Shown here in pieces: positions 2,260-44,156 of a DNA stretch of 44,156 bases. Both the position numbers and the translations under genes were made by a program. Where the stretch lies: IMG/VR virus record IMGVR_UViG_3300039002_000011, positions 1-44,156 of that record, one strand, 5' to 3'. This DNA comes from a virus. Positions within the stretch are counted from its first letter, which is position 1. Each line of letters begins with the position of its first letter. The notes beneath the pieces were generated by a model. That model was not told where the DNA came from. It was given only the letters and a program-made list of their open reading frames with translations, and did no database searches.

Positions 2260-3783
2260 GTGGCTATTGCTGAAGTCTTCCGTGATATTGCTCAACGCCG
2301 CTCACGGGTGGAGAAAGCCCTGCGAACAGGGACGCTCACTCCGGGCGACGGGGCAGCGCTCATGGAAGGTTTTGCCTACATCTACAAGGATGGTCCTGTA
2401 CCGGTCCTGGGTATAGGGCGCAGCGGCTCAGCCGATGTATCTCACGCCAACGAAGAGCAGTATGCCATACCATTTGTAATCACTACCTTGGAAGAGGACC
2501 GGGACGGTGACATAGTTGTACCTATGGGGTGGCATGGGCAGAACTACGCGCGTAATCCTGTTTGGTTCTTCGGACACCAGCAGTGGGAAATCAGCATCGG
2601 CAAGAGCATAGGACCGGACGGTAAACTTTACGTCTTTCCCGAAGAGAAACTCATCAAGTCGGTTTGCTTCTTTGACCAGCATGATGAAGATGCCATGTAC
2701 ATCTATGGCAAGGTCATGCGGGGATACCTCAACGCTACCTCAATCGCTTTTGTACCGATAGACGCCGCTCGCCGGGATAATGAGTACGGCTACGAAAAAG
2801 CCCGGACACACAGTCAGTCTATGATGCCTCTAGGCTGGCTGTTCAAAGAGTGGGACCATACGGAAACGTCTATTGTCGGGGTAGGCTCCAACGCCGGCGC
2901 AATCCGGGACAGCCTGGACAAGGAGTGGATGTACATAACGCCCAAATGCCGTAAAGCTCTTGGGTCGTATGCCGCTCAAGCCAAGGGGTGCTGGAACGGG
3001 TGGTGTCCTTCTCCTCCATGTCAGCCTTGCCAAAAGACCGTTCGCAAAGAAACCCGACCACGGTTGAAAGCGGATAGGGGAAGCCAGTCCAACGCTCCGA
3101 TAGTCTACGAGCCGGGCTTACAGAATCCGCAAGGGGGAAACAAACCGTCTAACTCTTCTACACACCGGGTAGATACCGCCTACGCTCTGGATAAAGCCGG
3201 GGCAACGCCTACCTTCATGACCGGAGACAAGGTAGTTGCTACTCACTCGGCTACCAGTGATATCCCGCTCGATAGGGTAGGAACGGTGGTTGATACCTGG
3301 TACGGAACCGAGTCTCTCCATGACCCGGAGGATGTTGAGGGGGCTCGTGGCGAGTTAACTCCTCCACCGGCTGAGGGAGCCCAGTGGCAACAGCCCGATT
3401 ACGGTCCTTCCTCTCAGGCGCCCGGTGCCCGGCAAGTTCCTCTTACCCAGAAGCCTGGAATGGCTGGCAGTGACGTTACTACTACACCGGCTCCCGGATC
3501 TGGTGAAGGTATCGCCTCTTCCAGCACTCAATACCTGGTTGACTTCGGTGATCGCAAGGTATGGGTCAGTGAGGAGTCTATCGAACAGGCGCCAGCCAAG
3601 GGCGGAGAGGTAAAGCAGGGTGCTGCCGGTACGACTCTTGGACAGGTCATTCTCCCAGGAGATCCGGCGGCTCAATATGCAATTCCTAACCGGCTCAAGA
3701 GGTACAAGACCTCAGATCGGATAGATATTCTTAGACGGCATCAACAGCGCAAATCTCTTCTTGGACCTATGGCGGGGAGTTAA
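2260..3783 (+). CDS. Prohead maturation protease (HK97 / S78 type) with long C-terminal extension
   Basis: 507 residues from GTG 2260, after GAGG. Residues about 65-215 match the caudoviral prohead serine protease: EEDRDGDIV, then VWFFGHQ with the catalytic histidine near 106, YLNATSIAF with the catalytic serine near 161, and EWDHTETSIVGVGSNAGA, the usual end of the domain. The family cleaves scaffold and the N-terminal delta domain of the capsid protein. Normal length is 180-250 residues; here about 290 more follow. These include a cysteine cluster (CWNGWCPSPPCQPC, about 244-257), proline/glycine-rich linkers and two strand-rich patches (near 321-349 and 422-445) resembling halves of a small beta barrel. 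The extension may serve as scaffold. Confidence 0.9.
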   Translation: MAIAEVFRDIAQRRSRVEKALRTGTLTPGDGAALMEGFAYIYKDGPVPVLGIGRSGSADVSHANEEQYAIPFVITTLEEDRDGDIVVPMGWHGQNYARNPVWFFGHQQWEISIGKSIGPDGKLYVFPEEKLIKSVCFFDQHDEDAMYIYGKVMRGYLNATSIAFVPIDAARRDNEYGYEKARTHSQSMMPLGWLFKEWDHTETSIVGVGSNAGAIRDSLDKEWMYITPKCRKALGSYAAQAKGCWNGWCPSPPCQPCQKTVRKETRPRLKADRGSQSNAPIVYEPGLQNPQGGNKPSNSSTHRVDTAYALDKAGATPTFMTGDKVVATHSATSDIPLDRVGTVVDTWYGTESLHDPEDVEGARGELTPPPAEGAQWQQPDYGPSSQAPGARQVPLTQKPGMAGSDVTTTPAPGSGEGIASSSTQYLVDFGDRKVWVSEESIEQAPAKGGEVKQGAAGTTLGQVILPGDPAAQYAIPNRLKRYKTSDRIDILRRHQQRKSLLGPMAGS

Positions 3784-7441: not shown

Positions 7442-7654
7442 ATGACAGTCGCAGAACGTGATAGTCAGCTTGTGGAAGAGTCAGACGTTATCACTATAGT
7501 GCGCCGACTCTTAGCACAAGCCAAAAGGGATAGGATCACAGGGAGGTTGACTATCGAGATAGTTTTACGGCAAGGTGGGGTTGCCAGAACGTTCTCCGAA
7601 AGAGAACATAAAGAAGAGGGATGTTCTGTGAAGCTGTACAACCAGGAGAAGTAG
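7442..7654 (+). CDS. Small protein of unknown function
   Basis: 70 residues from ATG 7442, with GGAG 11 bases upstream; an in-frame GTG at 7430 overlaps that signal and is less likely. The protein has an N-terminal charged helix (RRLLAQAKRDR) followed by strands (GRLTIEIVLRQGG). No family recognised. It lies between the AAA+ gene and the leader of the first capsid gene. Confidence 0.5.
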   Translation: MTVAERDSQLVEESDVITIVRRLLAQAKRDRITGRLTIEIVLRQGGVARTFSEREHKEEGCSVKLYNQEK

Positions 7655-7683
7655 GAACTCATTCAAGCTTAGTTTCCCGTCAC

Positions 7684-7733
7684 GCGGGAGGTTCAACGTC
7701 ATCAGCTTGTGCTGACCTCACGAGAGAACCCGC
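7684..7733 (+). ncRNA. Structured leader RNA, copy A (upstream of the first major capsid gene)
   Basis: First of three leaders with one fold. Read 5' to 3': stem GCGGG (7684-7688), bulge AGG, TTC, AA, CGT (7697-7699), CA, hairpin TCAGC-ttgt-GCTGA (7702-7715), CCTC, ACG (7720-7722), AGA, GAA, then CCCGC (7729-7733). The three helices pair GCGGG with CCCGC, TTC with GAA, and CGT with ACG. Copies B and C keep the unpaired letters and change the paired ones in compensating ways. The 3' arm CCCGC is also the left arm of the terminator that follows, so both cannot form together. Family not recognised. Confidence 0.75.
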
Positions 7734-7766
7734 TCAGGCTCAAACAGCCTAGCGGGTATTTTCTTT
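7728..7766 (+). terminator. Intrinsic terminator (possible attenuator) before the first major capsid gene
   Basis: ACCCGCT (7728-7734), one unpaired C, AGGCT (7736-7740), loop CAAAC, AGCCT (7746-7750) and AGCGGGT (7751-7757) make a 12-pair GC-rich hairpin, followed by ATTTTCTTT. It stands only 15 bases before the capsid start and downstream of a leader RNA whose closing stem uses the same bases 7729-7733. It is therefore likely to be conditional. Confidence 0.85.
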
Positions 7767-7781
7767 AGAGGGAGGCCAAAA

Positions 7782-9230
7782 ATGGCTGAGATGACTCAAC
7801 TCGAAATGGTCCAGAAGATGGACCAAATGATGGCACTGCTCGAAAAGGGCAACAAGCCATCACGGGGTTCTCCCGCTGGCGTGGTGGGAGACATTAACGA
7901 ATCCTGGCGTCAGCGCACCGACAAGGAATGGCCAGCTCACCAGCTCAAGGCGCTGTCTGACGTGTATGGCGGTCCTGAATCCCTGGAGATGTTCGGTAAG
8001 AAAAAGAACGGCAAGTACCGAGTCTCTGGTATTGGACCTCAGCTTGTCAAGATGGCAGCTATGGCGACCAAGGGCACGGAGAACAATGCCTGGCAAGTCG
8101 CCAAGAATCAAGGTCTGTATGAGGAGAATTACGGTCTTGAGCAGTTTGAGCGCGAGTACGGGTTCTACCCGGCTAACGTTCCTCACGTCCAGAAGACCCC
8201 GCACGGTGAAGTTCGCAAGACAGCACTGGCGGAAGGATCTGGGCAAACCGGCGGCTACGTCATTCCTCCTCAGTTCCAAAACGAATTGATGACCATTGCG
8301 GCTGAAGATGGGTTCATCGAACAGCGCGCAAAGGTCATCCCGATGAATACCAGGTCGGTCCAGTGGCCAATGCTGGATATCACGACCAAACAGGCGACGG
8401 GAACCACGCCATACTTCGGCGGTATCCTGGCTCAGTGGCAGCCAGAAGCGGTTTCCATCAACGAAACCGAACCCCAGTTCAAACAGAGCGAATGGGTAGC
8501 CTGGGATTTGGTGCTCTACACCGTTTCCAGCAACCAGCTCTTGGCCGATAACGGCATCGGGCTGGACGCTCTGCTCACTCAGCTCTTCGGTCAAGCCATT
8601 ACCTGGTACAAAGAGTTCGCGTATCTCCAAGGTACGGGAACTGGCAGCACAATGCCTCTGGGCGTGTTGAACGCTCCGGCTACGCTGCTCCAGAAACGCG
8701 CGGTTGCCAACCGATTCCTTATGTCGGACGCGGCTGCGATGATGTCTCACTTGCAGATTCGTAGCTGGGATGACGCTTGCTGGATTATGCACCAGAGCGT
8801 TCTTCCTCAGCTCATCATGATGCAAGATGCGGCTGCGGCTAACCAAACTCAGCTCGCTAACGTTCCGGCTGGAAATCGTCTCTCCTGGTTGACTCCTTAC
8901 GGAGACGGTGAGAAGGGACCGGCGGCTATGAAGCTGCCTAATGCCTTCCTCAACGGTCTTCCAATATTCTTCACAGAAAAGACTGTTCAGCTCGGTACGA
9001 CGGGTGACGTTCTCTTGGTGGATTGGAGCCGGTACATAATCGGTATGCGGCTTGACCTCCAGATTGACGTTTCGCCGCACTTCTTGTTCCGTAACAACCA
9101 ACTCGCCTGGCGCGTTATCGCTCGTTGCGATGGCAAGCCGTGGCTCAACAACTTCATCACTGACCAAACCGGCTTCCAGGTCAGCCCGTTCATTTCGCTG
9201 TCCACCACAGCGACTAGCACGGCCTACTAA
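7782..9230 (+). CDS. Major capsid protein 1 (HK97 fold)
   Basis: 482 residues; strong AGGGAGG before ATG 7782. The first ~150 residues are charged and helical (delta domain). Then KTALAEG (146-152) and TGGYVIPPQF mark the usual start of the mature HK97-fold protein. Family features follow: ETEPQF, a VSSNQLL segment, LQGTGTGSTMPLGVLNA, the WIMHQSVL strand, GLPIFFTEK and a DWSRYIIGMR end region. It should form the icosahedral shell after cleavage by the protease at 2260. A full paralogue with a shorter delta domain lies at 11402. Expression is probably set by the leader and terminator immediately upstream. Confidence 0.93.
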   Translation: MAEMTQLEMVQKMDQMMALLEKGNKPSRGSPAGVVGDINESWRQRTDKEWPAHQLKALSDVYGGPESLEMFGKKKNGKYRVSGIGPQLVKMAAMATKGTENNAWQVAKNQGLYEENYGLEQFEREYGFYPANVPHVQKTPHGEVRKTALAEGSGQTGGYVIPPQFQNELMTIAAEDGFIEQRAKVIPMNTRSVQWPMLDITTKQATGTTPYFGGILAQWQPEAVSINETEPQFKQSEWVAWDLVLYTVSSNQLLADNGIGLDALLTQLFGQAITWYKEFAYLQGTGTGSTMPLGVLNAPATLLQKRAVANRFLMSDAAAMMSHLQIRSWDDACWIMHQSVLPQLIMMQDAAAANQTQLANVPAGNRLSWLTPYGDGEKGPAAMKLPNAFLNGLPIFFTEKTVQLGTTGDVLLVDWSRYIIGMRLDLQIDVSPHFLFRNNQLAWRVIARCDGKPWLNNFITDQTGFQVSPFISLSTTATSTAY

Positions 9231-10100: not shown

Positions 10101-11246
10101 ATGTACACGTCTCAGCAATATCTTGAGGCAGGGATTTACTGCACTCGGCTAGAAAACTGGCAGATGGCAGTAAATCCCCTTCAAGAAGCCTTGAAGATGG
10201 GTTTGGATACCCCAGAGTTGAGGATGTATTTGGGTCAAGCCTGCATACATCTGAAACTATACCGGGAGGCTCATGAGCACTTAACAAAGTCTCTTGAGTT
10301 AAAGCCGGATTATACGTATTCGGATATTCTCCTGGCACACGTTGAATCAATATTCGGCAAGGATGACGAATCATGGGAACGGGATATGAGACTGATGAGG
10401 AACCATCCCGCCCGTCCCTATCCTAACAGGATATGGGACTGTGAAGGTTCCTTGGTGGGGAAAACCGTTCTGGTGCATATGTTTGATGGACACGGGCTAG
10501 GGGACGTGATCCAGTCCATGAGACATATTGCACCTTTTAAGGAGAAGTTTGGTTGCCAAATTTTGGTTAGTGCGACTCCAGACACCGAATGTCTGTTTAA
10601 GACACTCAATGGAGTTGATCAACTAACGGTTTACGTAGACGAGACAATCAAGTATGACGTATCCGCCAGTTTGGAAGACTGTCGGTTACTGACTAGAGGA
10701 ATGGTCACAGAACACCCATACTTGTATGCCGACCCAGAAGTGGTGTCAAAGTGGGCTCCGCATACTAATAAGGGACTGTTCAGGGTGGGGGTTAGCTGGC
10801 GAGCGAGTCAAGGTAACTTGCACAGAACTAAAAGCGTACCTTTGAGGTTCTTCAAGCCTTTGACAGAGATACCGGGGGTGGAACTGTATAGCCTCCAAGT
10901 TAGGGCAGGAGATGAGTGTTATCAGGAAAAGATTCCTCTAGTCAACATCGGAGGAAAGTTCAACGCTAACAGCTTCTCCGATGCCGCAGCGGCTACAGAG
11001 TGTATGGACCTGGTGATTTCTGTAGATAGTGCGATAGCACACTTGGCGGGGGCGCTAGGCAAACAGGTATGGACACTACTCCCGTATGCTCCGGCGAGTC
11101 GGTGGAAACTTGAGGGAGATACAACAGAGATTTACCCGACCATGAGGTTATTCAGGCAACCATCCTACGGTGATTGGAAAGGTTGCTTCGATAAGGTCAC
11201 GGAAGCCTTGAAAGAGGTGGTCTGTGGCGAATGTGTACCGGCGTAA
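10101..11246 (+). CDS. TPR protein with GT9-like glycosyltransferase domain (copy 1)
   Basis: 381 residues from ATG 10101. Residues 1-85 contain TPR repeats (QYLEAGIYCTRLENWQMAV, LYREAHEHLTKSLELKPD). The remainder is a GT-B-type glycosyltransferase module related to heptosyltransferases: DGHGLGDVIQSM as the N-terminal nucleotide loop, then VGVSWRAS and DLVISVDSAIAHLAGALGK, the donor-binding signature, ending WTLLPYAPASRW...YPTMRLFRQ. Such TPR-glycosyltransferases are common in bacteria. Here it sits between two capsid genes, so virion protein glycosylation is a reasonable guess. A paralogue lies at 33490. Confidence 0.8.
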   Translation: MYTSQQYLEAGIYCTRLENWQMAVNPLQEALKMGLDTPELRMYLGQACIHLKLYREAHEHLTKSLELKPDYTYSDILLAHVESIFGKDDESWERDMRLMRNHPARPYPNRIWDCEGSLVGKTVLVHMFDGHGLGDVIQSMRHIAPFKEKFGCQILVSATPDTECLFKTLNGVDQLTVYVDETIKYDVSASLEDCRLLTRGMVTEHPYLYADPEVVSKWAPHTNKGLFRVGVSWRASQGNLHRTKSVPLRFFKPLTEIPGVELYSLQVRAGDECYQEKIPLVNIGGKFNANSFSDAAAATECMDLVISVDSAIAHLAGALGKQVWTLLPYAPASRWKLEGDTTEIYPTMRLFRQPSYGDWKGCFDKVTEALKEVVCGECVPA

Positions 11247-11409
11247 TGAGTTTGAAGAGCGTAGTAATCGCAAATCTGCTCTGGGCAAGGCTACCGAAGA
11301 GCAGCTACGCCGGGCTCTGGCTCTAAAGACCTTCAGGGAACTAGAACAGTGCAGCGCAGAGGAAATCATGGACGAACTGGAATATCGAAAGAAGGTGAGT
11401 AATGGCTAG
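11224..11409 (+). CDS. Small charged helical protein
   Basis: 61 residues from GTG 11224, overlapping the previous gene by 23 bases and the second capsid gene by 8. Mostly helix-forming charged residues (EEQLRRALALKTFRELEQ, EEIMDELEYRKK). It could be a small scaffold or assembly factor for the neighbouring capsid protein. No family recognised. Confidence 0.5.
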   Translation: MANVYRRNEFEERSNRKSALGKATEEQLRRALALKTFRELEQCSAEEIMDELEYRKKVSNG

Positions 11410-12574
11410 CTGGACTGAAAAGGCTCTGAGAATTGCCAAGGCTGCCTCCACCTTCCGGCTGAACAGCCCGGACGCGAAGCCGGTGCGCCATAAATCCTTC
11501 ACTGACTACTGTGTATCGGTCAAGAATAAAGAGAACAAACGTCTTGAGGAAGTGTACGGCTCCCGATGGGAGGCGGTTGAAGAACGTCCAGGACAGGACT
11601 TCTCCCTAGGATCGGTACAGAAAGCAGCTCTGTCTGAGACTCAGGGACTCACCGGCGGCTATCTGGTGCCGATGGACTACACTCTACGGCTCATGGAGGT
11701 GGTTATAGAGGAGTCCTTCCTGTATCCGCTGGCTACCATCCTCCCGATGCAGTCTCAGACTACGCAGGCTCCCAAGATCGATATTGAAACGGCTCAGGCA
11801 GCCAAAACTGCGCCGTACTTCGGCGGAATGCTGATGCAATGGGGTGCTGAACAAGCGCCGTCTGAGACAGAACCGACCTTCAGGAACGTGCCCCTGTACG
11901 CCTGGGACTTACTTGGGTACTCGAAACTTAGCAACCAGCTTTTCCAGGACATTGGGGACGCCGGGGAAGAGTACCTCATCAATCTGATAGCCAAGGCGGC
12001 TAGCTGGTACACGGAGTTTGCTTTCCTTCAGGGGTTAGGTGCCAGTAACTCCATGCCCCTTGGGGTGATCAATGCTCCAGCGGCCATTCAAGTAACCTCA
12101 AAGGACAATAGCGGAAACACGATAGTCATAGATGACATATCAGCAATGACTTCCGACCTTCTACCTTACTCGTGGAAGAATGCTATATGGGCGTGTCATC
12201 CAACCGTACTCAACACTCTGCAAAAGAATATCACGACATACTTCATCAACATTGAAATCGGTAGAGAGAGACACGGTAGCCAGTGTGGTATGTTGTCTAC
12301 CCGCCCGCTGTTCGTTACAGATAAGCTGCCAGCTATCGGTACAAGCAATGCTGCTAAGGTATCCGGGTGTTTGGTTCTGTTTGACCCAACTCTGTACATC
12401 ATCGGGGATCGTCAACAGATCCTCATTGACATTAGTGAACATAACTTGTTCCAGACGTACCAAACAGTGCTCAGGGCATGGGTGCGTATGGATGGTAAGC
12501 CAATAGTAACCAATAAGGTAACGGCGGCAGACGGTACTTCTCTGGTTTCTCCTTATGTGGTCCTAAAAGCATAA
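11402..12574 (+). CDS. Major capsid protein 2 (HK97 fold), paralogue of the 7782 gene
   Basis: 390 residues. From KAALSET (74-80) on it aligns end to end with the first capsid protein: TGGYLVPMDY versus TGGYVIPPQF; TAPYFGGMLMQW versus TTPYFGGILAQW; ETEPTF versus ETEPQF; LQGLGASNSMPLGVINAPA versus LQGTGTGSTMPLGVLNAPA; YIIGDRQQ versus YIIGMRLD. The N-terminal arm before the predicted cleavage zone is about half as long (73 versus 145 residues). It could form pentamers, a second lattice position, or an alternative shell. The ATG overlaps the previous gene by 8 bases; no strong ribosome binding site is seen. Confidence 0.88.
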   Translation: MASWTEKALRIAKAASTFRLNSPDAKPVRHKSFTDYCVSVKNKENKRLEEVYGSRWEAVEERPGQDFSLGSVQKAALSETQGLTGGYLVPMDYTLRLMEVVIEESFLYPLATILPMQSQTTQAPKIDIETAQAAKTAPYFGGMLMQWGAEQAPSETEPTFRNVPLYAWDLLGYSKLSNQLFQDIGDAGEEYLINLIAKAASWYTEFAFLQGLGASNSMPLGVINAPAAIQVTSKDNSGNTIVIDDISAMTSDLLPYSWKNAIWACHPTVLNTLQKNITTYFINIEIGRERHGSQCGMLSTRPLFVTDKLPAIGTSNAAKVSGCLVLFDPTLYIIGDRQQILIDISEHNLFQTYQTVLRAWVRMDGKPIVTNKVTAADGTSLVSPYVVLKA

Positions 12575-13404: not shown

Positions 13405-14442
13405 TTGAGTAACCGTGTTTGTGTGGTTCCGACATGCCGACCGGAGTCTTTGCAGAGGTTCTTGAAAGAGTGGGAAGGAAAGGGGGGATGGACTTCACTT
13501 ATAGTAGTGGAGGACGCCCCCCATATTTCCCCCCAAATAACAACCGACCTATCCCATTACGAGTCGAACACCGGAGTCAAAACTTACCATGTCTCTTGGG
13601 ATAGCATAGACAGACTCCTGGGAGAGCGATCCTGGATTATCTCGCGCCAGGATAGTGCCATTCGTTGCTTCGGATTCCTACTCGCCTACCGGATGGGAGC
13701 CGATTACGTTCTCACCCTGGACGATGACTGCTACCCAGATATAGCCCATCCAGATATAGTCAATCTCCATCTAAACAATATCCGTCGATTTCCTAAATGG
13801 TCCAGTACCGTGCCCGGATTGAAGGTTAGGGGGCTGCCGTACAAGAACCTGGGTGTCCGGCACGACGTTCAAATATCAATGGGGCTCTGGACTGGAGTCC
13901 CTGACCTGGACGGCAAAACCCAACTAGGGATGGATGAGAACGACTTACGCCTAAAGTTTTTCTTACCTCATATCGGCGTTCGCTTGTTGGCGCAGGGCGA
14001 GTATGCCCCTCTGTGTGGCATGAATCTGTGCTTCACCAGGCGAGCCATACCGCTCTTGTACTATCCACTGATGGGACGGAATCAGCCATACAAACGGTTT
14101 GACGACATATGGGCAGGGGTGGTTGCAGAACGGCTGTGCGATCTTATGGGATGGAAAATCTCTATCGGGACTCCGTTTGTAAGGCACTCCCGCGCCAGCG
14201 ATCCACGAGCGAATGTAGTCAAGGAGGCTCCAGGCATTGAGGCAAATGAGGAGTTCTGGACTATCGTAGATAGGTTTTACGATCCTATAAAAAGTCCTCT
14301 ACTCCTTGTAAGGGACCTGGGGATACACTTCCAGGAGTACTACGATGTACTCGTAGCGGACGTACTCGATAAGGAGTACATCAAGAAGCTGGGCAAAGCA
14401 TACACCATTTGGACAGAACTCTTCAGTGAGGTTATCCTATGA
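13405..14442 (+). CDS. GT75 / reversibly glycosylated polypeptide-like protein (UDP-arabinopyranose mutase family)
   Basis: 345 residues from TTG 13405, after AAAGGAG. LTLDDDCYPD (DDD at 106-108) is the nucleotide-sugar metal site. The sequences SMGLWTGVPDLD, CGMNLCFTRRAI, RFDDIWAGVVAERLCDLMG and FVRHSRASDPRANV, then VKEAPGI, follow the order of conserved blocks of plant reversibly glycosylated polypeptides, which interconvert UDP-arabinopyranose and UDP-arabinofuranose. A cytosolic nucleotide-sugar enzyme is therefore likely, feeding the neighbouring transferases. Whether it is a mutase or a transferase cannot be decided from sequence. Confidence 0.85.
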   Translation: MSNRVCVVPTCRPESLQRFLKEWEGKGGWTSLIVVEDAPHISPQITTDLSHYESNTGVKTYHVSWDSIDRLLGERSWIISRQDSAIRCFGFLLAYRMGADYVLTLDDDCYPDIAHPDIVNLHLNNIRRFPKWSSTVPGLKVRGLPYKNLGVRHDVQISMGLWTGVPDLDGKTQLGMDENDLRLKFFLPHIGVRLLAQGEYAPLCGMNLCFTRRAIPLLYYPLMGRNQPYKRFDDIWAGVVAERLCDLMGWKISIGTPFVRHSRASDPRANVVKEAPGIEANEEFWTIVDRFYDPIKSPLLLVRDLGIHFQEYYDVLVADVLDKEYIKKLGKAYTIWTELFSEVIL

Positions 14443-15068
14443 CGGAACTGGTAGTAGCCCGGTACAACGAAGATCTGTCATGGGTGGGCGTCATGGCACA
14501 TGCCCATCCTATGAAGGTTTCCGTTTACAACAAGGGAACTCCTTTTCCCAAGTGCCACAACCTACCAAATGTGGGTAGAGAGGCTCATACTTACCTACAC
14601 CACATTACAGAACGGTGGGATACCCTGGCTGATTGGACCGTTTTCACTCAAGCCGACCCGGAACCTCATACGACGGCTGAGGAGTTCCTTACGCTTTTTC
14701 CTCCTTCAGTAGCCGGTATAAGAGGTATCAAGCATTTCCGGCTAGATGGCGAGTTAAAAGAGGACGGGCGTATCGCCTGGCAATGCAGCCCGACATGGTT
14801 TTCCAAAGTAGAGAGCGGGGAAATTGGCATATCTGAATGGTCCCTTGTCGAGTTCTTTAACAAGTTCTTGGGACCGGTGGATTTGAGCAAGGTAGTGTAC
14901 TACGGGGGGGCTATATTCGCCGTCTCAAAAGCCAATATCTGCCGTCATCCACGTAGTTTCTACCAGAGTTTACTTGCGACTGTGGACCATCACATTCATC
15001 CCGAAGAGGCTCACTATCTGGAAAGAGCCTGGCACTGCATTTTCACAACAAGGAGCGAGAATGTCTGA
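14439..15068 (+). CDS. DUF3431 family protein (copy 1)
   Basis: 209 residues; ATGA overlap with the previous gene. It starts TELVVARYNEDLSW and has VYNKG, LPNVGREAHTYLHHI and LADWTVFTQADPEPH, the conserved blocks of DUF3431, a family often found beside glycosyltransferases in bacteria and fungi. The biochemical role of the family is not known to me; a glycosyltransferase-like role is suspected. A paralogue is at 42075. Here it sits between the GT75-like gene and a glycosyltransferase-methyltransferase fusion. Confidence 0.8.
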   Translation: MTELVVARYNEDLSWVGVMAHAHPMKVSVYNKGTPFPKCHNLPNVGREAHTYLHHITERWDTLADWTVFTQADPEPHTTAEEFLTLFPPSVAGIRGIKHFRLDGELKEDGRIAWQCSPTWFSKVESGEIGISEWSLVEFFNKFLGPVDLSKVVYYGGAIFAVSKANICRHPRSFYQSLLATVDHHIHPEEAHYLERAWHCIFTTRSENV

Positions 15069-16422
15069 GAAAATTCACTGCACTGATGGAGTGCTCTACG
15101 CTTGCCAACCGAGTTACGGCAATGGGGACAAGGACTCTCACAGGCAGTTCTGGAGTCAGTCAGTAAATCCTTATGGTCCGTATGCTGGCCTTCAGAGCAA
15201 ATTTACGAATTACGGGAGTTCTCTACTCCCAGATGCGTTTAATAACCACTGGAGAACGGCACTTAACCTCCAAATGGAAGGAACCCCAATCACCAGGTTC
15301 GCTATGGTGCATGACGATATCGTCCCGGAGTCCTTCTACATGGATAAACTCCTGGAGATATTGGACAACACGCCAGACGCCGACCTTGTAGCAGCAGCAT
15401 GCCCCATAAAAGACGCTCGGGGGCTAGTCAGTACGGCTATTGACGACCCAAACGATGAGTGGGAAGTGTTTCGGCGGTTCACTTTGCCAGAAATACACGA
15501 ATTGCCGGAGACTTTTTGTGCAAAAGACACTCTTTATCCCGATAAATTTCTGTTAGCCAACACCGGTTGCTGGGTTTGCCGGTTTGATCGACCCTGGCGA
15601 CACAAAATGTTCTTTGAAGTACGAACCAGGATGGTTTTCGTCATGAAAAACGGAGATGTTATCCCAGCGGCGGACTACCGGGAAGGTATGAGGGGGCGAT
15701 TTCAAAACCAGGTCATGCCGGAGGACTGGTTGTTCAGCCGTCTATTAGGGCAACTGGGTGGTAAAGTCTACATTACCCGAACAGTGGACATAAACCACAT
15801 AGGTAGTTACCCATACCCGAGCAAGAATCCTTCATGGGCTCAGTGGAATCGGGACGAGGGATTGACCAAGAAGTATGATATGGAGAACGGTCCGCCCATG
15901 ATTTCGGGGTGGTTGACCGAAGCTGAGGGACGACTGCTGGCGCAACTGGCTGCCGGTAAGTCCGTGCTGGAGATCGGCTCTTGGTGCGGGCTCTCTACCG
16001 TGTGGATGGCTCGAAAAGCCAGTATGGTAATAGCTGTGGACACGTTTGACGGAACAGGAACCGATAACCCAAGAAACACTCTCCGGGAGTTCCGTAACAA
16101 CATAGCCAAATACCAGGTAGAGGATAAGGTTAAGTACTGGGTAGGTCCAAGCCGGACCGCTCTACCCGACCTGGCAGGTTTCTTTGACTTCGCTTTCATC
16201 GACGGTGCGCATGACCCTAAGAGCATCCAGGAAGACTTCGATTTAGTCATCAGGACTATTCAGCATCATCCCGATGCGCTAATCGCGTTCCACGATTACG
16301 ACGCAGACTACCCCGAAGTGGTTGAGTTTGTGGATAACCTCTTGGCGGGGAATTACGACGTACACTCCCAGGCAGAGGCATTGATTGTTTTGAAACCCAA
16401 AATAAGAAAGATCGGAGGTTGA
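15061..16422 (+). CDS. Glycosyltransferase-like / SAM methyltransferase fusion
   Basis: 453 residues from ATG 15061 with AAGGAG; the longer open frame from 14974 has no start signal. Residues 1-285 resemble a GT-A-type transferase: FAMVHDDIVPESFYMDKLLE (an acidic metal-site pattern), AACPIKDARGLVSTA, TGCWVCRFDRPW and PEDWLFSRLLGQLGG, all shared with the protein at 42914. Residues about 310-450 are a class I methyltransferase: VLEIGSWCGLSTVWMA, VIAVDTFDG, FAFIDGAHD and AFHDYD. The fusion could add and methylate a sugar on the same glycan. Confidence 0.8.
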   Translation: MSEKIHCTDGVLYACQPSYGNGDKDSHRQFWSQSVNPYGPYAGLQSKFTNYGSSLLPDAFNNHWRTALNLQMEGTPITRFAMVHDDIVPESFYMDKLLEILDNTPDADLVAAACPIKDARGLVSTAIDDPNDEWEVFRRFTLPEIHELPETFCAKDTLYPDKFLLANTGCWVCRFDRPWRHKMFFEVRTRMVFVMKNGDVIPAADYREGMRGRFQNQVMPEDWLFSRLLGQLGGKVYITRTVDINHIGSYPYPSKNPSWAQWNRDEGLTKKYDMENGPPMISGWLTEAEGRLLAQLAAGKSVLEIGSWCGLSTVWMARKASMVIAVDTFDGTGTDNPRNTLREFRNNIAKYQVEDKVKYWVGPSRTALPDLAGFFDFAFIDGAHDPKSIQEDFDLVIRTIQHHPDALIAFHDYDADYPEVVEFVDNLLAGNYDVHSQAEALIVLKPKIRKIGG

Positions 16423-21938: not shown

Positions 21939-22193
21939 GTGCTTCATGTTGTGGCGTTTGCTCTATCGCTGGCTATCGATTATGCAGCGGTTCAGTACGT
22001 GGTTGCCGCAAACAAACGTAGTTACGGTGGTGCATGTGGTGCCGCCATTTTCTCCGGGCTGCTTTTCGTTCTGGGGTACTACTCCTACAAGGTCTGCTTT
22101 AGGTACGGAGAAGAGTACGTAATCCCAACAGCGATGGGTCATATGATCGGCTCATTTCTGGGAGTCATAAGTGGAATGCGGAAAGATGTGTAA
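21939..22193 (+). CDS. Small multi-pass membrane protein
   Basis: 84 residues from GTG 21939 with CGGAGG upstream. Three hydrophobic segments (VAFALSLAIDYAAVQYVVAA, AAIFSGLLFVLGYYSYKV, AMGHMIGSFLGVISGM) separated by a basic loop. Similar small membrane proteins occur in many phages next to tail genes, with unknown role; a holin is possible. Overlaps the GIY-YIG gene by 8 bases. Confidence 0.6.
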   Translation: MLHVVAFALSLAIDYAAVQYVVAANKRSYGGACGAAIFSGLLFVLGYYSYKVCFRYGEEYVIPTAMGHMIGSFLGVISGMRKDV

Positions 22194-22824
22194 CACGGGT
22201 GTTTACTGCTGGAAGAACAAAGTAAACGGAAAGGTGTACGTGGGTTCAGCCTCACAATGCTTTTCACGGAGAAAGTCCGCGCATCTACGAAACCTAAAAA
22301 ACGGGGTTCATTGGAACGAGCATCTGCAACGAGCATGGAACAAGTATCCTGGCGCATTCGTGTTCCAAGTTCTGGAGCGATGTTCCCCGGATCTAGCTGT
22401 TGTTCGGGAACAGTACTGGATTGACAAACTTAAATCGGCAAACCCGGAATACGGGTACAACTTATCACCCACAGCCGGGAGTAGCCTGGGTACAAAGATG
22501 ACGGATCGGCAGAAGGAGCGATACAGAACGGCAGCAAAAGAAAGGGCAAAGCTTCCCCAAGTAAAGGCGGGAATAGAAGCATTCAAACAGCGTTTGGTGA
22601 CAGACAATCCAAACCGTAGTTCGGAGCCTGAAGTTAGGGCTAAAATTTCTGCATCCCTTCGGGGCAAACGGCAGTCCCCGGAAACCATAGCTAAGCGTGT
22701 AGCATCACTCAAAGGTAAGAAAAGAACTGCTGAGCATCGGGCGAGGATGTCCGCAGTTGCCCTTGCTAATCGGGAAAACCGTCGCAAGGCCGCACTAAAG
22801 CGATGGCATGGAATTACCGCCTAA
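22186..22824 (+). CDS. GIY-YIG homing endonuclease with NUMOD3 repeats
   Basis: 212 residues from ATG 22186. TGVYCWKNKVNGKVYVGSA is the GIY-YIG core; RRKSAHLRNL has the catalytic arginine and WNEHLQRAW follows; REQYWIDKLK carries the acidic metal ligand; GYNLSPTAG ends the nuclease domain. The C-terminal half holds repeated NUMOD3 DNA-binding motifs (VRAKISASLRGKRQSPETI, KRVASLKGKKRTAEHRARM). It appears intact. It overlaps the upstream membrane gene by 8 bases and the downstream gene by 17, so it is seamlessly fitted into the operon. Confidence 0.92.
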   Translation: MCNTGVYCWKNKVNGKVYVGSASQCFSRRKSAHLRNLKNGVHWNEHLQRAWNKYPGAFVFQVLERCSPDLAVVREQYWIDKLKSANPEYGYNLSPTAGSSLGTKMTDRQKERYRTAAKERAKLPQVKAGIEAFKQRLVTDNPNRSSEPEVRAKISASLRGKRQSPETIAKRVASLKGKKRTAEHRARMSAVALANRENRRKAALKRWHGITA

Positions 22825-31210: not shown

Positions 31211-32013
31211 GTTTAGCCAGACAAGAGTATCAGGGTTCTATGTACATAGGGGACAGCGTTCCCCCGACCGCGAACAAGCCCATCCTGGTACAGCTTACGG
31301 CTGTTTCTGGTGGGCTCTACTCGTGGAAGCAAGTGTATGGGTTCCATCCCCCCGGCACGTTTACTATCCTACCCGGAGGTTTGTTTGGCACTGCTGCGGC
31401 CATGCCCGCTATCAACCTGAATGGATTCTCGATAACGACATTCCCCACTATTGCTCTTCTTCAGAAATTGTATCTGGATAGTGCGCTGAACTGGATTTAC
31501 GTGATTATCAGCGTGGGGGGCAATCCGTCTACAGGTGGTGGGGGTGGATTCACACCGACAGCGGGCGGAGCCTACGTCAATGACAACGGCGCCAATACGC
31601 TGAATACGGGAACCCTGATACAGATGCAATGGGCGTTTCCTCCGGTGGATGACAATAGTCCAGGAACCGTGCCCAGCACTTTCTTTAACGGTACGACTTC
31701 GTTCATCGCCAGATCGGCGGGAGATTACATATTTGGCTCTAGCCTTAGTTTCACCCAGAGCGGTCAAGCGCTGAACGGTAATGAAATCGTGACTATGGCT
31801 GTACGTCTCAATTCTACAGCGATAGCCGGAGACTCGGCCTTTCCTGGGTTCATACCAGCGGGTAGCCAGTTCAGCTTGTGCGTCAGCGCCAGACGCAAGC
31901 TTGCGACCAATGACGTGATCGATGTTGAGGCGTTCCAGACGTTCGGTGCTGACCCCGGCAATCCATCTTGGTTTGTCCAGGGAAGCTTCTGGATAGAAAG
32001 GCTGGAAATCTAA
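31207..32013 (+). CDS. Tail tip / receptor-binding protein with C1q-like domain
   Basis: 268 residues from ATG 31207 (ATGA overlap). The N-terminus (to about 110) is a small virion-attachment beta domain, followed by a glycine run GGGGG. The C-terminal 150 residues have the jelly-roll pattern of C1q/TNF-like phage proteins: TLIQMQWAFPPVDDNS, SFIARSAGDYIFGSSLSF, VTMAVRLNSTAIAG, SLCVSARRKLATNDVIDV and a final GSFWIERL. Such trimeric domains bind host surface sugars or proteins. Confidence 0.72.
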   Translation: MSLARQEYQGSMYIGDSVPPTANKPILVQLTAVSGGLYSWKQVYGFHPPGTFTILPGGLFGTAAAMPAINLNGFSITTFPTIALLQKLYLDSALNWIYVIISVGGNPSTGGGGGFTPTAGGAYVNDNGANTLNTGTLIQMQWAFPPVDDNSPGTVPSTFFNGTTSFIARSAGDYIFGSSLSFTQSGQALNGNEIVTMAVRLNSTAIAGDSAFPGFIPAGSQFSLCVSARRKLATNDVIDVEAFQTFGADPGNPSWFVQGSFWIERLEI

Positions 32014-32030
32014 TCTAGCCAGATTATAAT
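32003..32030 (+). promoter_or_regulatory. Promoter before leader RNA copy B
   Basis: A perfect TATAAT (32025-32030) with TGGAAA (32003-32008, 4/6) 16 bases upstream. Predicted start near 32037 places leader RNA B at the very 5' end of the transcript. Confidence 0.6.
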
Positions 32031-32046: not shown

Positions 32047-32094
32047 GCAGGAGGTTCAGCGCCACCTCAAGGGAGGCTATGCGGTAGAACCTGC
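32047..32094 (+). ncRNA. Structured leader RNA, copy B
   Basis: Same fold as copies A and C: GCAGG (32047-32051), AGG, TTC, AG, CGC (32060-32062), CA, hairpin CCTC-aagg-GAGG (32065-32076), CTAT, GCG (32081-32083), GTA, GAA, CCTGC (32090-32094). GCAGG pairs CCTGC, TTC pairs GAA, CGC pairs GCG. Compared with copy A, both sides of the outer stem and of CGY/RCG changed together. It stands between a TATAAT promoter and a small structural gene. Confidence 0.75.
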
Positions 32095-32126
32095 AAGTGT
32101 GTTGCAACGCATTTGTGGAGGTTCTA
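32085..32126 (+). promoter_or_regulatory. Alternative hairpin covering the ribosome binding site
   Basis: TAGAACCT (32085-32092) is perfectly complementary to AGGTTCTA (32119-32126), which covers most of the GGAGG ribosome site (32117-32121) and ends three bases before ATG 32129. An inner stem TGCAA/TTGCA (32092-32096, 32102-32106) could form in the loop, with base 32092 shared. Bases 32090-32092 belong also to the closing stem of leader RNA B, so the two structures exclude each other. Confidence 0.7.
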
Positions 32127-32128
32127 TC

Positions 32129-32599
32129 ATGGCTTTTCTTCAAGCTAAGGTGAACTGGACCACGGTTTCTCTGACTACCTCCACGACTCGTACCGTGGGT
32201 GGTCTGAAAGCGCCGTCGGCCCAGGTCGTCAAGGTGCTTGAGTTCCGTGCGACTCATGACGGGGCTCAGTCGGGTAACGCTCCTGACGTTACGACTCTTG
32301 ATCGTACTTCGTTCGCGTCCAACTCTCCTGGTACTGGCTCGACTACCTACGCCGGCGCTAAGAAGGACCCAGGACGCCAGGAATCCATCCAAACAGCGAT
32401 GGCTACTTCCTGGACGCAGGAACCAACAATCAAGACCTTGCAAGAGCAGTACAACCTGCCTCAGTACAACGGCGCGTATCACTATATCTTCCCGTTCGCC
32501 GGGCCAGAAATCGTTCCCGGTGGTGGCGGATATACTGCCGACCACAACACGCCAAACTCGCCGCTTAACAGCTCTGGCAAGTTTGACTTTGAGGAGTAA
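32129..32599 (+). CDS. Small structural protein under leader RNA B, probably abundant
   Basis: 156 residues from ATG 32129 with GGAGG. Its own promoter, structured leader and strong terminator make it a separate transcription unit, which suits an abundant virion protein. Beta-rich start (KVNWTTVSLTTSTTRTVGG, QVVKVLEFRATHDGAQ) and a proline/glycine-rich end. No family recognised; head decoration or tail fibre subunit possible. Confidence 0.6.
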   Translation: MAFLQAKVNWTTVSLTTSTTRTVGGLKAPSAQVVKVLEFRATHDGAQSGNAPDVTTLDRTSFASNSPGTGSTTYAGAKKDPGRQESIQTAMATSWTQEPTIKTLQEQYNLPQYNGAYHYIFPFAGPEIVPGGGGYTADHNTPNSPLNSSGKFDFEE

Positions 32600-33489: not shown

Positions 33490-34788
33490 ATGGACTCAGG
33501 CTTGAAAGAGATTTACCTTCGCACTAAAGACCTAGCCCTAGAGGGTAAGAACGAAGAGGTTGTGCCTCTTCTCCGTAGTGTGGTAAAGCACATACCAAAC
33601 TTTGGAGAAGCCTGGTACAACCTGGGGCTCGCTCTGTGCAAGCTGGACAGGGATGAAGAATCCATAGAGGTACTCAACAAGGCTATCGAGTTACGCCCAT
33701 ATGATTGGAATGCCTGGAGCGTTAAGGCACGGTGCTATGGAAATATGGGATGGTTCGATGAGGCTGTAGGTTGTCTGAAAGAGGCTCTACGGCTAGACCC
33801 GGAGAACAAACAAACACAGTGGAAACTGTCCTACTACCTTCTCATGCAAGGCAAGTTTAAGGAGGCTGCTCCCTATGAAGAGTGGTGGAGGACTTGTGGT
33901 GCTAGGGCGCGTATTCGGACCTGGTATGGACACAGACCTCCTGGCGAATCAATATTTGTTTACCCTGATGGTGGGATTGGTGACAGTATCAACTACTTCC
34001 GATACTGTCTGTTGCTCGGTAAACATTTCGGAGTAAAGCACACTTACGTAGGTTGCTACAATGAACTGTACAGTATGTTCGCCAGACAAATCCCAAGAGA
34101 GTACCTTGTAAACTTCGGACCTGTGGCGGCGCGGAATAACGGCGCTGAGTGTATCCTCAACTGGGACGTTGACGTTCCCCCAACCGAGAGTCGGACGTAT
34201 CAGTCGGACCTGTTCCCGATTTTCAACTTCCAGCACTTCCCCGAGTCTGTTCCTTACCTGACTCCTGACCCTGCCAAGGTGGAAGAGTGGGCGAAGTTCT
34301 TTACGGGGAACCGCCTGAAGGTAGGTTTAATCTGGCAAGGGCATAAAGGCGGAAACAACGATGATCGCCGGTCCATTCCCTTGTCTTACTTCAAACCTTT
34401 CAATGATCTGGATATTGACCTGTACCTTATGCAAGCTAAGTACGGTCTTGAACAGGTGGCGGAGGCCGGAGTCAAGTTCCGCAGTAACCTGGGATTCATG
34501 TTTGATGTTAACAGCATGGAGGACATGGCTGGCGCTGTTGCTCACATGGATCTGGTGGTTTCCGTCTGTACCGGCGGGGCGCATCTTGTTGCCGCTATGG
34601 GTAAGCCGGTATATTTGCTTCTCAGCAACCTAGCGTGCTGGAGATGGATGAGGGACAGAGAGGATACTCCGTTCTACCCGAGCATGACCCTGTTCCGTCA
34701 AGGGTATGACAAAGACTGGCATAAGGTCATCCATAGTGTCCGTGAATGTATTTTCTTCAAAGCCAAACACAAGGAGTTAACCTCATGA
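33490..34788 (+). CDS. TPR protein with GT9-like glycosyltransferase domain (copy 2)
   Basis: 432 residues from ATG 33490. Three TPR repeats (ALEGKNEEVVPLLRSVVKHI, EAWYNLGLALCKLDRDEESI, AWSVKARCYGNMGWFDEAVG) precede a GT-B domain like that of the 10101 gene: PDGGIGDSINYFRYC, VGLIWQGHKGGN, DLVVSVCTGGAHLVAAMGK and FYPSMTLFRQG. Copy 1 has the usual SVDSA in the donor-site loop; here it is SVCTG, lacking the aspartate. It may be less active or have a different donor. Followed by a papain-like protease gene (ATGA overlap). Confidence 0.8.
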   Translation: MDSGLKEIYLRTKDLALEGKNEEVVPLLRSVVKHIPNFGEAWYNLGLALCKLDRDEESIEVLNKAIELRPYDWNAWSVKARCYGNMGWFDEAVGCLKEALRLDPENKQTQWKLSYYLLMQGKFKEAAPYEEWWRTCGARARIRTWYGHRPPGESIFVYPDGGIGDSINYFRYCLLLGKHFGVKHTYVGCYNELYSMFARQIPREYLVNFGPVAARNNGAECILNWDVDVPPTESRTYQSDLFPIFNFQHFPESVPYLTPDPAKVEEWAKFFTGNRLKVGLIWQGHKGGNNDDRRSIPLSYFKPFNDLDIDLYLMQAKYGLEQVAEAGVKFRSNLGFMFDVNSMEDMAGAVAHMDLVVSVCTGGAHLVAAMGKPVYLLLSNLACWRWMRDREDTPFYPSMTLFRQGYDKDWHKVIHSVRECIFFKAKHKELTS

Positions 34789-37102: not shown

Positions 37103-37576
37103 ATGTACCTTGTAGGTAGGAAATACGGCACTCGCACCGTGCTTAGCCGCAGCCGTTTACATAAGGCTAAGTGGCGAGTTAGGTGCGAGTGCGGTGCTGA
37201 AGCGGAACTTACTCTGGCCAATCTTAAAGTACGCAAGTGTACTAAGTGCGATAGGGTATATGGGGAAGGTAGCCGTAACTGGAAAGGGGGTAGGTACGAA
37301 GATAAAGATGGCTACGTCCAGGTAAGAAATCCATCTCATCCTAGAGCGTGGGGAAGTGGGTATGTGTACGAACACACAATGGTCATGGAAGAACATCTGC
37401 ACAGATACCTGCTACCTGGAGAAACAATCCACCACATTAACGGAGTCAAGAATGACAACCGTCTAGAGAATCTAGAACTTTGGAGTGCGTACCATCCATC
37501 AGGACAAAGAGTAAAGGATTTGGTCAGATGGGCTAAAGATTTACTAGCTCGGTACGAACCAGAGGCACTAAAATGA
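37103..37576 (+). CDS. HNH homing endonuclease
   Basis: 157 residues from ATG 37103. N-terminal zinc-like part (RCECGAEAELTLANLKVRKC and TKC) followed by the HNH_3 type core: NWKGGRYEDKDGYVQV, YVYEHTMVMEEHL, ETIHHINGVKNDNRLENLEL and HPSGQRVKDL. H-H at the first H, N of DNR, and N of ENL are the metal and catalytic residues. It appears intact. ATGA-type overlap with the next gene shows a seamless insertion between groES and the FkbM gene. Confidence 0.9.
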   Translation: MYLVGRKYGTRTVLSRSRLHKAKWRVRCECGAEAELTLANLKVRKCTKCDRVYGEGSRNWKGGRYEDKDGYVQVRNPSHPRAWGSGYVYEHTMVMEEHLHRYLLPGETIHHINGVKNDNRLENLELWSAYHPSGQRVKDLVRWAKDLLARYEPEALK

Positions 37577-38358
37577 CCTATAACCGATATCATTCGGTGT
37601 GTGGAGAGGACCAGAAGATACGGGAAATGGGGATACTTCCGCTAACTGGAGTTTTTGTGGATGTAGGCGCCGGCCCTCCGTTCGATGGCAACAACACGGG
37701 GCACTACGAGCGCAACAATTGGACTGGATTGTGCGTAGACGCCCATCCCCGTGTCATAGAAAACCTGAAGAGAGAGCGGGCTTCATCCACCATCATAGAA
37801 CATTGCGCAGTGGGGACTGAGGAAGGCACAGTCAAGTTCTTCATCAACGGGGACATGAATCTATCCAGCAAGCTGCCAGGACGCCCGTGCATAGGAGAGA
37901 TTGAGGTTCCGGCTGCCAGGCTCGAAACCCTACTTGTGAGACATGGGATAGGTAAAATAGACCTATTATCCATTGATGCCGAAGGGTGTGACCTGGACGT
38001 GTGGAAGTCAATGGACTGGGCTAAGCATCGCCCGACAGCCGTTATCATAGAGCCCGGAGATGACCGTTGGGAAATCCAACGCGAGATGCAGAGTAAGGGA
38101 TACGAACTCGCTCATGTGACCGCCGATAACCTCATCTTCAAGCTCAACCTGGAATGGCAGTTCATAGGAGACAATGGGTGGGTATTTGGTCCAAAAGTTC
38201 GCGGCATAGTGCGGCCTAGATTGGGTAAATTGTACTATGACGACTACCGTGGTACTGGGTATGGTTGGATATGGAGTACCAATAGCGTAGACGGTAATGC
38301 CACAAGCCTGTTAGACGCAGTACAAGAAGTCGAGACAGCGCTGGGGGAAAACCGATGA
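37573..38358 (+). CDS. FkbM-family methyltransferase
   Basis: 261 residues. FVDVGAGPPFDGNNTGHYER is the SAM motif, GLCVDAHP the ribose-holding acid, and IDLLSIDAEGCDLDVWKSMD the FkbM hallmark. These enzymes O-methylate sugars or other glycan groups. The last 80 residues (GWVFGPKVRGIVRPRLGKLY ...) are not part of the standard domain. It begins the second sugar block. Confidence 0.88.
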   Translation: MTYNRYHSVCGEDQKIREMGILPLTGVFVDVGAGPPFDGNNTGHYERNNWTGLCVDAHPRVIENLKRERASSTIIEHCAVGTEEGTVKFFINGDMNLSSKLPGRPCIGEIEVPAARLETLLVRHGIGKIDLLSIDAEGCDLDVWKSMDWAKHRPTAVIIEPGDDRWEIQREMQSKGYELAHVTADNLIFKLNLEWQFIGDNGWVFGPKVRGIVRPRLGKLYYDDYRGTGYGWIWSTNSVDGNATSLLDAVQEVETALGENR

Positions 38359-38480
38359 GTCCTAAAGACCCGGATCTGAGAGAGATAGACAGTTCCCTAG
38401 GCTGTATCTGGTTTACTATCTGTTTCTGGGGGTTTGGCATCTCCTTACTCCTTTATATGATCCTGGAGAAGTTAAAATGA
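38355..38480 (+). CDS. Single-pass membrane microprotein, 41 residues
   Basis: ATG 38355 and TGA 38478 both overlap neighbours (ATGA). A charged start (SPKDPDLREIDSS) is followed by GCIWFTICFWGFGISLLLYM as one membrane helix. No family recognised. Confidence 0.55.
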   Translation: MSPKDPDLREIDSSLGCIWFTICFWGFGISLLLYMILEKLK

Positions 38481-42913: not shown

Positions 42914-43786
42914 ATGAGTAAGTCTAAGACATTCCTGGCTATGCCCTACTGTGGTACAGCTCGCCCCGATGCTACTATGGCAGGTATCCTGACCCCGAGT
43001 AGCGACAGGGAGAGCTATCGGTTTTATCCTCTTGATAGTCCTCAAGGGGTGCACTGTTACAACTTCAATCGTGCTTGGTGCATGGCTCTGAACAGCCGCA
43101 AGAGAGAAAAGTGGACCCATTTTGCTATGATCCATTCGGACGTAGAGCCGGTGGATCATGGTTGGCTCGACAAGATGATTGAGTACCTGGACATGACCGG
43201 CGCCGATCTACTCTCCGTGGTGCTCAGAATCAAGGACAAGAGAGGGCTCACCAGTACGTGCGTCATGGATACGGAAACCAAAGAAGTCCGGCGGCTCACC
43301 ATGCACGAACTTGCGAGCATGCCGGTCAATTTCAATTACTACATGGCTTCAGCCCGGCTCAAGGACTGGAAGGCTGACGCCCACAATACCCAACTTCTCA
43401 TCTCTAGCGGTCTGTGGGTCTGTAGGTTTACCGAGCCGTGGGTAGAACAGGTTTGGTTTGAGATGAGGGATAGGATTTCCCGGCTGCCGCCCAGTGATGA
43501 ATGCCCGGAAGGCAAGTTCTTCCCTGTCAACTGGTCGGAGGACTGGAACTTTTCTCGGCAGTGTTACGAGCAAGGACTGCGGGTATTCGCAACCAGGGGC
43601 ATCCGAGCGGATCACATGGGAGGCTATCGGTACTCAAACCAGGACGTGGAAGGAACGTGGAAAAAGGACAATGAGGTATCGAAAGCGGACTATCTCGATT
43701 ATCTTCCAGGGCTGTCCAGCCTGGAGACTTACCAGGAAGATCATCCAAACAATAAGAAGCCTCCCGCCAGTGGCATCGTGGTATAA
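42914..43786 (+). CDS. Glycosyltransferase-like protein, paralogue of the 15061 N-terminal half
   Basis: 290 residues. FAMIHSDVEPVDHGWLDKMI, ADLLSVVLRIKDKRGLTSTC, ISSGLWVCRFTEPW, NWSEDWNFSRQCYEQGLRVF and IRADHMGGYRYSN match the 15061 protein in order (FAMVHDDIVPES ..., GCWVCRFDRPW, PEDWLFSRLLGQLGG, INHIGSYPYPS). No methyltransferase domain is attached here. Expected to be a GT-A-type enzyme with S-D-V as the metal motif. Confidence 0.75.
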   Translation: MSKSKTFLAMPYCGTARPDATMAGILTPSSDRESYRFYPLDSPQGVHCYNFNRAWCMALNSRKREKWTHFAMIHSDVEPVDHGWLDKMIEYLDMTGADLLSVVLRIKDKRGLTSTCVMDTETKEVRRLTMHELASMPVNFNYYMASARLKDWKADAHNTQLLISSGLWVCRFTEPWVEQVWFEMRDRISRLPPSDECPEGKFFPVNWSEDWNFSRQCYEQGLRVFATRGIRADHMGGYRYSNQDVEGTWKKDNEVSKADYLDYLPGLSSLETYQEDHPNNKKPPASGIVV

Positions 43787-43787
43787 T
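43779..43787 (+). promoter_or_regulatory. Extended -10 promoter before leader RNA copy C
   Basis: TGG-TATAAT: a perfect -10 box (43782-43787) with the TGn extension and no clear -35 box. It overlaps the stop codon of the 42914 gene and predicts a start near 43794, three bases before the leader RNA. Confidence 0.65.
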
Positions 43788-43796
43788 GGAAGAATA

Positions 43797-43850
43797 AGGG
43801 AGAGGTTCAACGCCTCTGCTACTGTGGCAGCTACGCGATAAGAACTCCCT
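43797..43850 (+). ncRNA. Structured leader RNA, copy C
   Basis: Same fold: AGGGAG (43797-43802), AGG, TTC, AA, CGC (43811-43813), CT, hairpin CTGC-tactgtg-GCAG (43816-43830), CTAC, GCG (43835-43837), ATAA, GAA, CTCCCT (43845-43850). The outer stem differs in sequence from A and B on both sides yet pairs fully, which is strong support for a selected fold. Confidence 0.75.
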
Positions 43851-43873
43851 AGGGTATCCACGAACCCTGGGGA
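43846..43873 (+). promoter_or_regulatory. Alternative hairpin over the ribosome site of the fibre gene
   Basis: TCCCTAGGGT (43846-43855) pairs with ACCCTGGGGA (43864-43873) over ten positions, one a G-T wobble, with an eight-base loop. It uses five of the six bases of the leader's closing 3' arm and hides GGGGA (43869-43873), the only ribosome-site-like sequence before ATG 43884. Confidence 0.65.
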
Positions 43874-43883
43874 TTCTACCGTC

Positions 43884-44156
43884 ATGGCCATAGCCGCAAC
43901 CGCCATTTGGGAATGCCGAACGACTGGAAATGATGCAAACGGCGGCGCATTTGACCCAAGAGTAGCAGCTCCGGGCACTGACTTCTCCCAGCAAAATGCC
44001 GCTCAGATAGCCTTTACCGATCTGGTTATAGGCAACCCTACAACAACGCAACTCACGTCGGCTGCACATCCGTTTGGTTCTACATCTCCTGGCAACTTCA
44101 TTCACATAACCGGTGGCACAGGATTTGTGCCAGGGTGGTATGAAATACTGTCTGTA
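43884..44156 (+). CDS. Tail-fibre-like protein, N-terminal part (partial)
   Basis: 91 residues to the window edge, still open. WECRTTGNDANGGAFDP, then GTDFSQQNAAQIAFTDLVI and FIHITGGTGFVPGWYEILSV are a recurring N-terminal block of phage virion proteins that lead into right-handed beta-helix fibres or appendages. It is under its own promoter and leader RNA C. Confidence 0.65.
   Translation, partial: MAIAATAIWECRTTGNDANGGAFDPRVAAPGTDFSQQNAAQIAFTDLVIGNPTTTQLTSAAHPFGSTSPGNFIHITGGTGFVPGWYEILSV

Follow-up and report, generated by a model that had tools for sequence, protein, structure and literature searches.

The timing of late structural genes in tailed phages is generally ascribed to promoters, sigma factors and processive antiterminators. 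Among leader RNAs that have been described, the RAT hairpin has a stem broken by asymmetric internal loops; its 3' part overlaps the left arm of an intrinsic terminator, and a protein stabilises its ON form (PMC3369936, PMC9981650). The put RNA of HK022 is about 70 nt long and consists of two stem-loops; it binds RNA polymerase, and the terminators on which it acts are distant (PMC9378689).

The 44,156-nt stretch of viral DNA analysed here (the window) contains three leaders, A (7684-7733), B (32047-32094) and C (43797-43850), all of which are intergenic and lie on the + strand. As in the RAT system (LicT, SacY and BglG, with their CAT domain), the leader stem is interrupted by asymmetric internal loops, and one strand is common to the antiterminator and an intrinsic terminator in leader A and in the related contigs L130, L124, L125 and L164. 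The leaders differ from RAT in having three asymmetric loops (3/0, 2/3-4 and 2/4 along the stem) where RAT has two, in being about 50 nt long, and in that leaders B and C use hairpins in the SD region, a translational version, in the setting of phage late genes. ANTAR target leaders likewise have an antiterminator hairpin that overlaps a terminator arm, but they consist of two hairpins with A1/G4 loops, which are absent here, since copies A, B and L130 carry one apical hairpin with a 4-nt loop.

A preliminary description of this DNA had given the coordinates of the three leaders, a common plan and a set of compensating pairs, and we found all three to be correct. The motif AGGTTCARCG has three occurrences on the + strand of the window, at the three leaders, and none on the - strand, while the reversed motif, used as a control, has no occurrence in the window. 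In the three window leaders, every copy has 15-16 drawn pairs, all of them standard. A fourth copy (L130:9884-9935) has an identical sequence in L128/L130 and L127, which represent a related phage with a capsid protein about 65% identical to that of the window. When A, B, C and L130 were compared, 9 of 15 pairs had changed on both sides with pairing kept, although these four distinct strict-motif sequences, three of them from one genome, represent few independent events. In the same set, paired cells amounted to 96.6%, versus 28-49% when the partner was slid by 1-3 columns. The third helix, which is CGT/ACG or CGC/GCG in the window leaders, is CAC/GTG in L130 and so adds new compensating pairs, whereas all four copies agree in the unpaired AGG, in having two purines after TTC and in the loop plan.

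Two checks of a kind proposed with the preliminary description, a covariance model and a covariation test, bore it out. A covariance model built from A, B and L130 with C left out (R1) recovered copy C with an E-value of 1.7e-6 to 7e-6, and none of 500 column shuffles reached the covariation score observed by pair counting over the four sequences. P1 reached at least 5 pairs in all four lineage copies (A, B, C and L130), compared with 1 of 88 other database sites that have the leader loop letters and spacing and served as a control. The drawing is not unique in every detail: the 3-nt bulge may be placed at GGA, GAG or AGG, and pairing GGUUC with GAACC, which shortens P1, gives a fold of about the same quality. 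The class had gone unrecognised in the preliminary description, and Rfam 15 was equally silent, a cmscan of the window with E-values up to 5 giving no match at any of the three leaders. We conclude that the leaders are a real, lineage-restricted structured RNA.

In isolation, the window leaders are of modest stability (z about -1 to -2), and this, together with the dispersal of the three copies, is what one would expect of a repeat at the DNA level, such as inverted-repeat operators or mobile repeats, or of chance, with no role for RNA. However, the compensating changes preserve RNA pairs to an extent that no column shuffle matched, and the copies lie on the same strand, at the same place before genes, and are conserved in another phage, so that we regard a DNA-level explanation as extremely improbable.

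Leader A (P1 GCGGG/CCCGC, AGG bulge, TTC/GAA, AA, CGT/ACG, hairpin, CCTC) lies upstream of the major capsid gene (7782..9230, + strand), whose product has the HK97 fold (Pfam Phage_capsid PF05065, 4e-31; PHROG 10, major head protein). The claim that its CCCGC arm also belongs to a terminator proved to be real: the intrinsic terminator at 7729..7766 (+ strand) shares CCCGC with the leader, pairs 7729-7734 with 7751-7756 and an inner AGGCT with AGCCT, ends in the tail TATTTTCTTT, and has a hairpin with z = -6.9. On the other side, an upstream arm, a1 (TTTCCCGT, 7673..7680, + strand), can pair with 7684-7691 in the predicted fold of 7655-7781. Control of the trp type through a translated leader peptide was considered and rejected, as no open frame lies consistently on arm a1. 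Even when the downstream sequence was removed, leader A was predicted to adopt another fold, with a P1 probability of 0, and locking the leader in the model did not open A's SD at all. At 11402-12574 the window encodes a second HK97-type capsid paralogue; it shares 37% identity with the first across 340 aa, has no leader and is kept in L124, L125, L129, L132 and L126.

Directly upstream of leader B (32047..32094, + strand) is a promoter-like TGGAAA-16-TATAAT (32003..32030, + strand; 10/12 matches), and the gene that follows the leader (32129..32599, + strand) has an orthologue (71%) between leader and capsid gene in L130. At this locus, the OFF hairpin (32083..32128, + strand) brings together the leader 3' strand GGTAGAACCTGC and the SD GGAGG (32117-32121) in 20 pairs with a two-base bulge, ending at the AUG; its z is -6.2, and 0 of 200 shuffles were as stable. 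The SD segment at 32117-32124, GGAGGTTC, repeats part of the 5' strand of leader B (32050-32057) letter for letter in direct orientation. Without downstream sequence, leader B was predicted to take a different fold, with a P1 probability of about 0.05, and locking it in the model increased SD opening modestly, from 0.35 to 0.48.

Leader C, on the + strand like the others, is preceded by an extended -10 read from the sequence (TGGTATAAT, 43779..43787, + strand) and followed by a gene that runs off the window (43884..44156, + strand) and for which we found no family match and no phage relative. Its OFF hairpin (43846..43873, + strand) consists of 10 pairs (TCCCTAGGGT/ACCCTGGGGA) without a U-run; it starts with the P1 arm TCCC and joins the P1 3' arm of the leader to GGGGA, 10 nt before the AUG. 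The z is -3.9, with 1 of 500 shuffles giving an equal helix. In the predicted ensemble, the P1 probability of copy C is 0.8-0.96 until ~20 nt beyond the leader and is then lost. Mimicry of a tRNA T-arm, for which GAGGTTCAACGCCTC in copy C was considered, was rejected, being impossible in copy A. The preliminary description captured the terminator of copy A but missed the OFF hairpins of B and C, which use the same strand and would act, clearly in B and probably in C, on the ribosome-binding site.

Several other features of the window were recorded. A two-gene cassette is present twice (14439-15870 and 42075-43786), with proteins about 31-35% identical, and its second copy ends just before leader C. 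Paralogous C-terminal domains are encoded at 10716-11210 and 34252-34752 (37%; both match PHROG 36377), a GIY-YIG homing endonuclease-like gene is found among the late genes (22171-22824), and a cluster of FkbM methyltransferase and glycosyltransferases spans 37573-42078, perhaps for modifying the surface of the virion or of the host.

In A, B, C, L130, L124 and L125, a downstream hairpin makes renewed use of the P1 3' strand, and when the downstream sequence was shuffled, a helix as good over this strand arose in 8, 6, 1, 0, 2 and 0 of 500 shuffles, respectively. Once the downstream strand was included, the predicted ensembles gave a P1 probability of 0 in A, B and C. There is thus strong evidence that the folds are mutually exclusive. 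The preliminary description had read copy A as a switch in which the leader fold permits capsid transcription, operated by a metabolite, ion or protein. This reading is supported in part: mutual exclusion of leader and terminator fits copy A, and relatives in which the shared arm is kept strengthen the case.

The explanation we favour, and consider somewhat more probable than its competitors together, is a lineage-specific strand-exchange attenuator that gates late genes, including the capsid gene, with a logic like that of LicT and RAT, and that is held by a putative factor. In the ON state, P1, the asymmetric 3-nt bulge and TTC/GAA would be followed along the ~50-nt leader by an asymmetric internal loop, a stem of 3 pairs, a 2/4-nt loop and the hairpin, a fold that would occupy the P1 3' strand. 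In the OFF state, this strand would instead pair with a downstream sequence that imitates the 5' strand of the leader itself, producing an intrinsic terminator before the capsid gene (in A and four relatives) and a hairpin over the ribosome-binding site at B, clearly, and at C, probably. Since the OFF fold is the default in the predicted ensembles, we infer that ON needs the leader to be held, a direction of switching that is well argued from these models; the ON form would need strong help, because leaders A and B are predicted to fold otherwise even without downstream sequence. The OFF state would be the thermodynamic default, and the ON factor would bind the shared bulge and loop letters on the emerging RNA, as suggested by the conservation of these unpaired letters while the stems vary. 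Such a factor would most likely be a phage-encoded RNA-binding protein that acts as LicT does on the RAT hairpin. Weighing against this explanation, there are only four strict-motif sequences, and the capsid leaders of L124, L125 and L164 have the arms in common with them but differ in their inner loops.

Searches with the capsid protein identified nine contigs from related viruses (about 60-75% identity), L128/L130 and L127 with the fourth leader copy among them, and no capsid relatives in prokaryote genomes. In L130, the leader is followed by the orthologue of the gene after copy B and then by the capsid gene, so that both genes lie behind one leader, whereas the window has one leader for each. 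Before the capsid gene of L124 and L125, we found RCGGG-(2 nt)-TTC ... GAA-CCCGY with different inner loops and a terminator that reuses CCCGY; in L164 this position holds a triple arm linked to a terminator, with yet another interior. The sharing of a strand with the terminator is therefore conserved in the capsid operons of four relatives, while the interiors differ in three of them (L124, L125 and L164). All the terminator-type leaders (A, L130, L124, L125 and L164) are preceded by an arm that could pair with the 5' arm of P1; leaders B and C have no such arm, and TATAAT boxes lie about 10-17 bases upstream of them instead. These promoter-like matches fit a scheme in which transcription would come to A by reading through from upstream, while B and C would be transcribed from promoters of their own. 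No recognisable version of the leader precedes the capsid gene in L132, L126 or L131, and the phages Dagobah and TMCBR2 (about 32% capsid identity) have neither a leader-sized gap nor a model match at this place. Just upstream of its capsid gene, L131 has a tRNA-Cys gene (3011-3091; anticodon ACA by ARAGORN), and the same gap in L126 holds a tRNA T-arm-like sequence.

Strand exchange might also operate without a dedicated ligand, the leaders serving as kinetic timers, RNase-processing sites or 5' stabilisers, or with read-through set by RNA polymerase speed or by general antitermination late in infection. The arms are kept in more relatives than the loops are, and B and C start near likely transcription starts, a suitable place for a stabilising hairpin. 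However, a bare stem would need neither the AGG, nor the two purines after TTC, nor the loop plan, all of which the four copies preserve. We consider these ligand-free variants, taken jointly, a possible but doubtful explanation.

Scans for exact patterns covered about 85,000 prokaryote genomes and 2.9 million viral contigs and revealed no copy outside this lineage, although divergent copies could be missed by such patterns. A P1-specific scan of the viral contigs returned only the related phage and sites judged to be chance, and further loop patterns (two in viral contigs and one in the about 85,000 prokaryote genomes) gave no more true copies. In a loose loop-pattern scan of viral contigs, none of 120 stretches had a P1 of at least 5 pairs, and all were attributed to chance. 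The same judgement was made of L239 (E 4e-4) and of L213, whose P1 has at least 5 pairs but lies inside a 568-codon open frame, because both had been pre-selected by pattern.

This distribution bears on whether the leaders are true riboswitches, that is, aptamers that bind a metabolite or ion in the infected cell and are coupled to a transcriptional platform in A and translational platforms in B and C. Their anatomy resembles that of ON riboswitches with mixed platforms, in which loops are conserved and stems variable and a terminator in one copy corresponds to an SD-sequestering hairpin in another; here, too, the loop letters are invariant, two platform types occur in one genome, and the predicted folds provide a mutually exclusive expression platform. 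Riboswitches are known in phages, as in the case of the glutamine riboswitch (PMC9004378). Nevertheless, the leaders differ in being confined to one phage lineage and in having no Rfam class match. Rather than being conserved in distant genomes, the candidate aptamer was found by exact-pattern scans in this lineage alone, with no true copy of the exact loop pattern in the about 85,000 prokaryote species genomes. In addition, the inner part varies among the relatives' capsid leaders, which is unlike metabolite aptamers, and the capsid gene is structural, not metabolic. A true riboswitch is thus unlikely in our estimation. We also regard as rather unlikely a broader proposal, a new phage-born class of ligand-sensing RNA in which one aptamer fold would control the capsid gene and other late genes through interchangeable transcriptional and translational platforms, sensing as a signal of the infection a metabolite, an ion or a structural protein. 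Given that the scans placed the motif in one lineage only and that close relatives have different interiors, we favour a co-evolving phage protein over a metabolite as the operator.

Another RNA-based explanation is processive antitermination of the HK022 put type, in which the leader RNA would bind RNA polymerase and carry it past downstream terminators. Like put, the leaders are multi-copy phage RNAs near promoters: they precede late genes, B and C lie just downstream of promoter-like sites, and there is more than one copy per genome, as with putL and putR. In place of the two stem-loops of put, though, the window leaders have a single interrupted stem, one arm of which also serves in the OFF hairpin, and neither B nor C has a terminator with a U-run. 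We consider a put-like mechanism very unlikely.

For the attenuator held by a phage protein, we sought candidate factors in the window and five relatives, and neither of the domains sought, CAT and ANTAR, yielded a regulator. The CAT domain (PF03123) was absent from the window and from the five relatives, which may be fragments, although a protein of this kind could be supplied by the host, and the ANTAR domain (PF03861) had no match in these six possibly incomplete records, with control genomes also giving none over the cut-off. We do not file the leaders under LicT/RAT or under riboswitches, as no CAT-domain protein, ligand or Rfam match was found. A small protein gene directly upstream of leader A (7442..7654, + strand) has homologues that precede the capsid gene in six relatives, between it and an AAA gene, and is absent from L132, which is also leader-less. 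The protein is fast-evolving, is predicted with modest confidence to contain a helix and beta strands (AlphaFold pLDDT 70), and has no Pfam, PHROG or PDB relative (best PDB match E 0.68). We set it aside as a regulator: its position is kept in seven genomes but it has no recognisable fold, and it is a weak candidate in that two of the seven (L126 and L131) do not have this leader.

If the proposed attenuator is correct, a single cis-acting RNA fold would gate the capsid gene through termination and further genes through access for the ribosome, which would constitute an extra layer in the timing of late gene expression. It would also point to a new phage RNA-binding factor and provide a compact ON switch.
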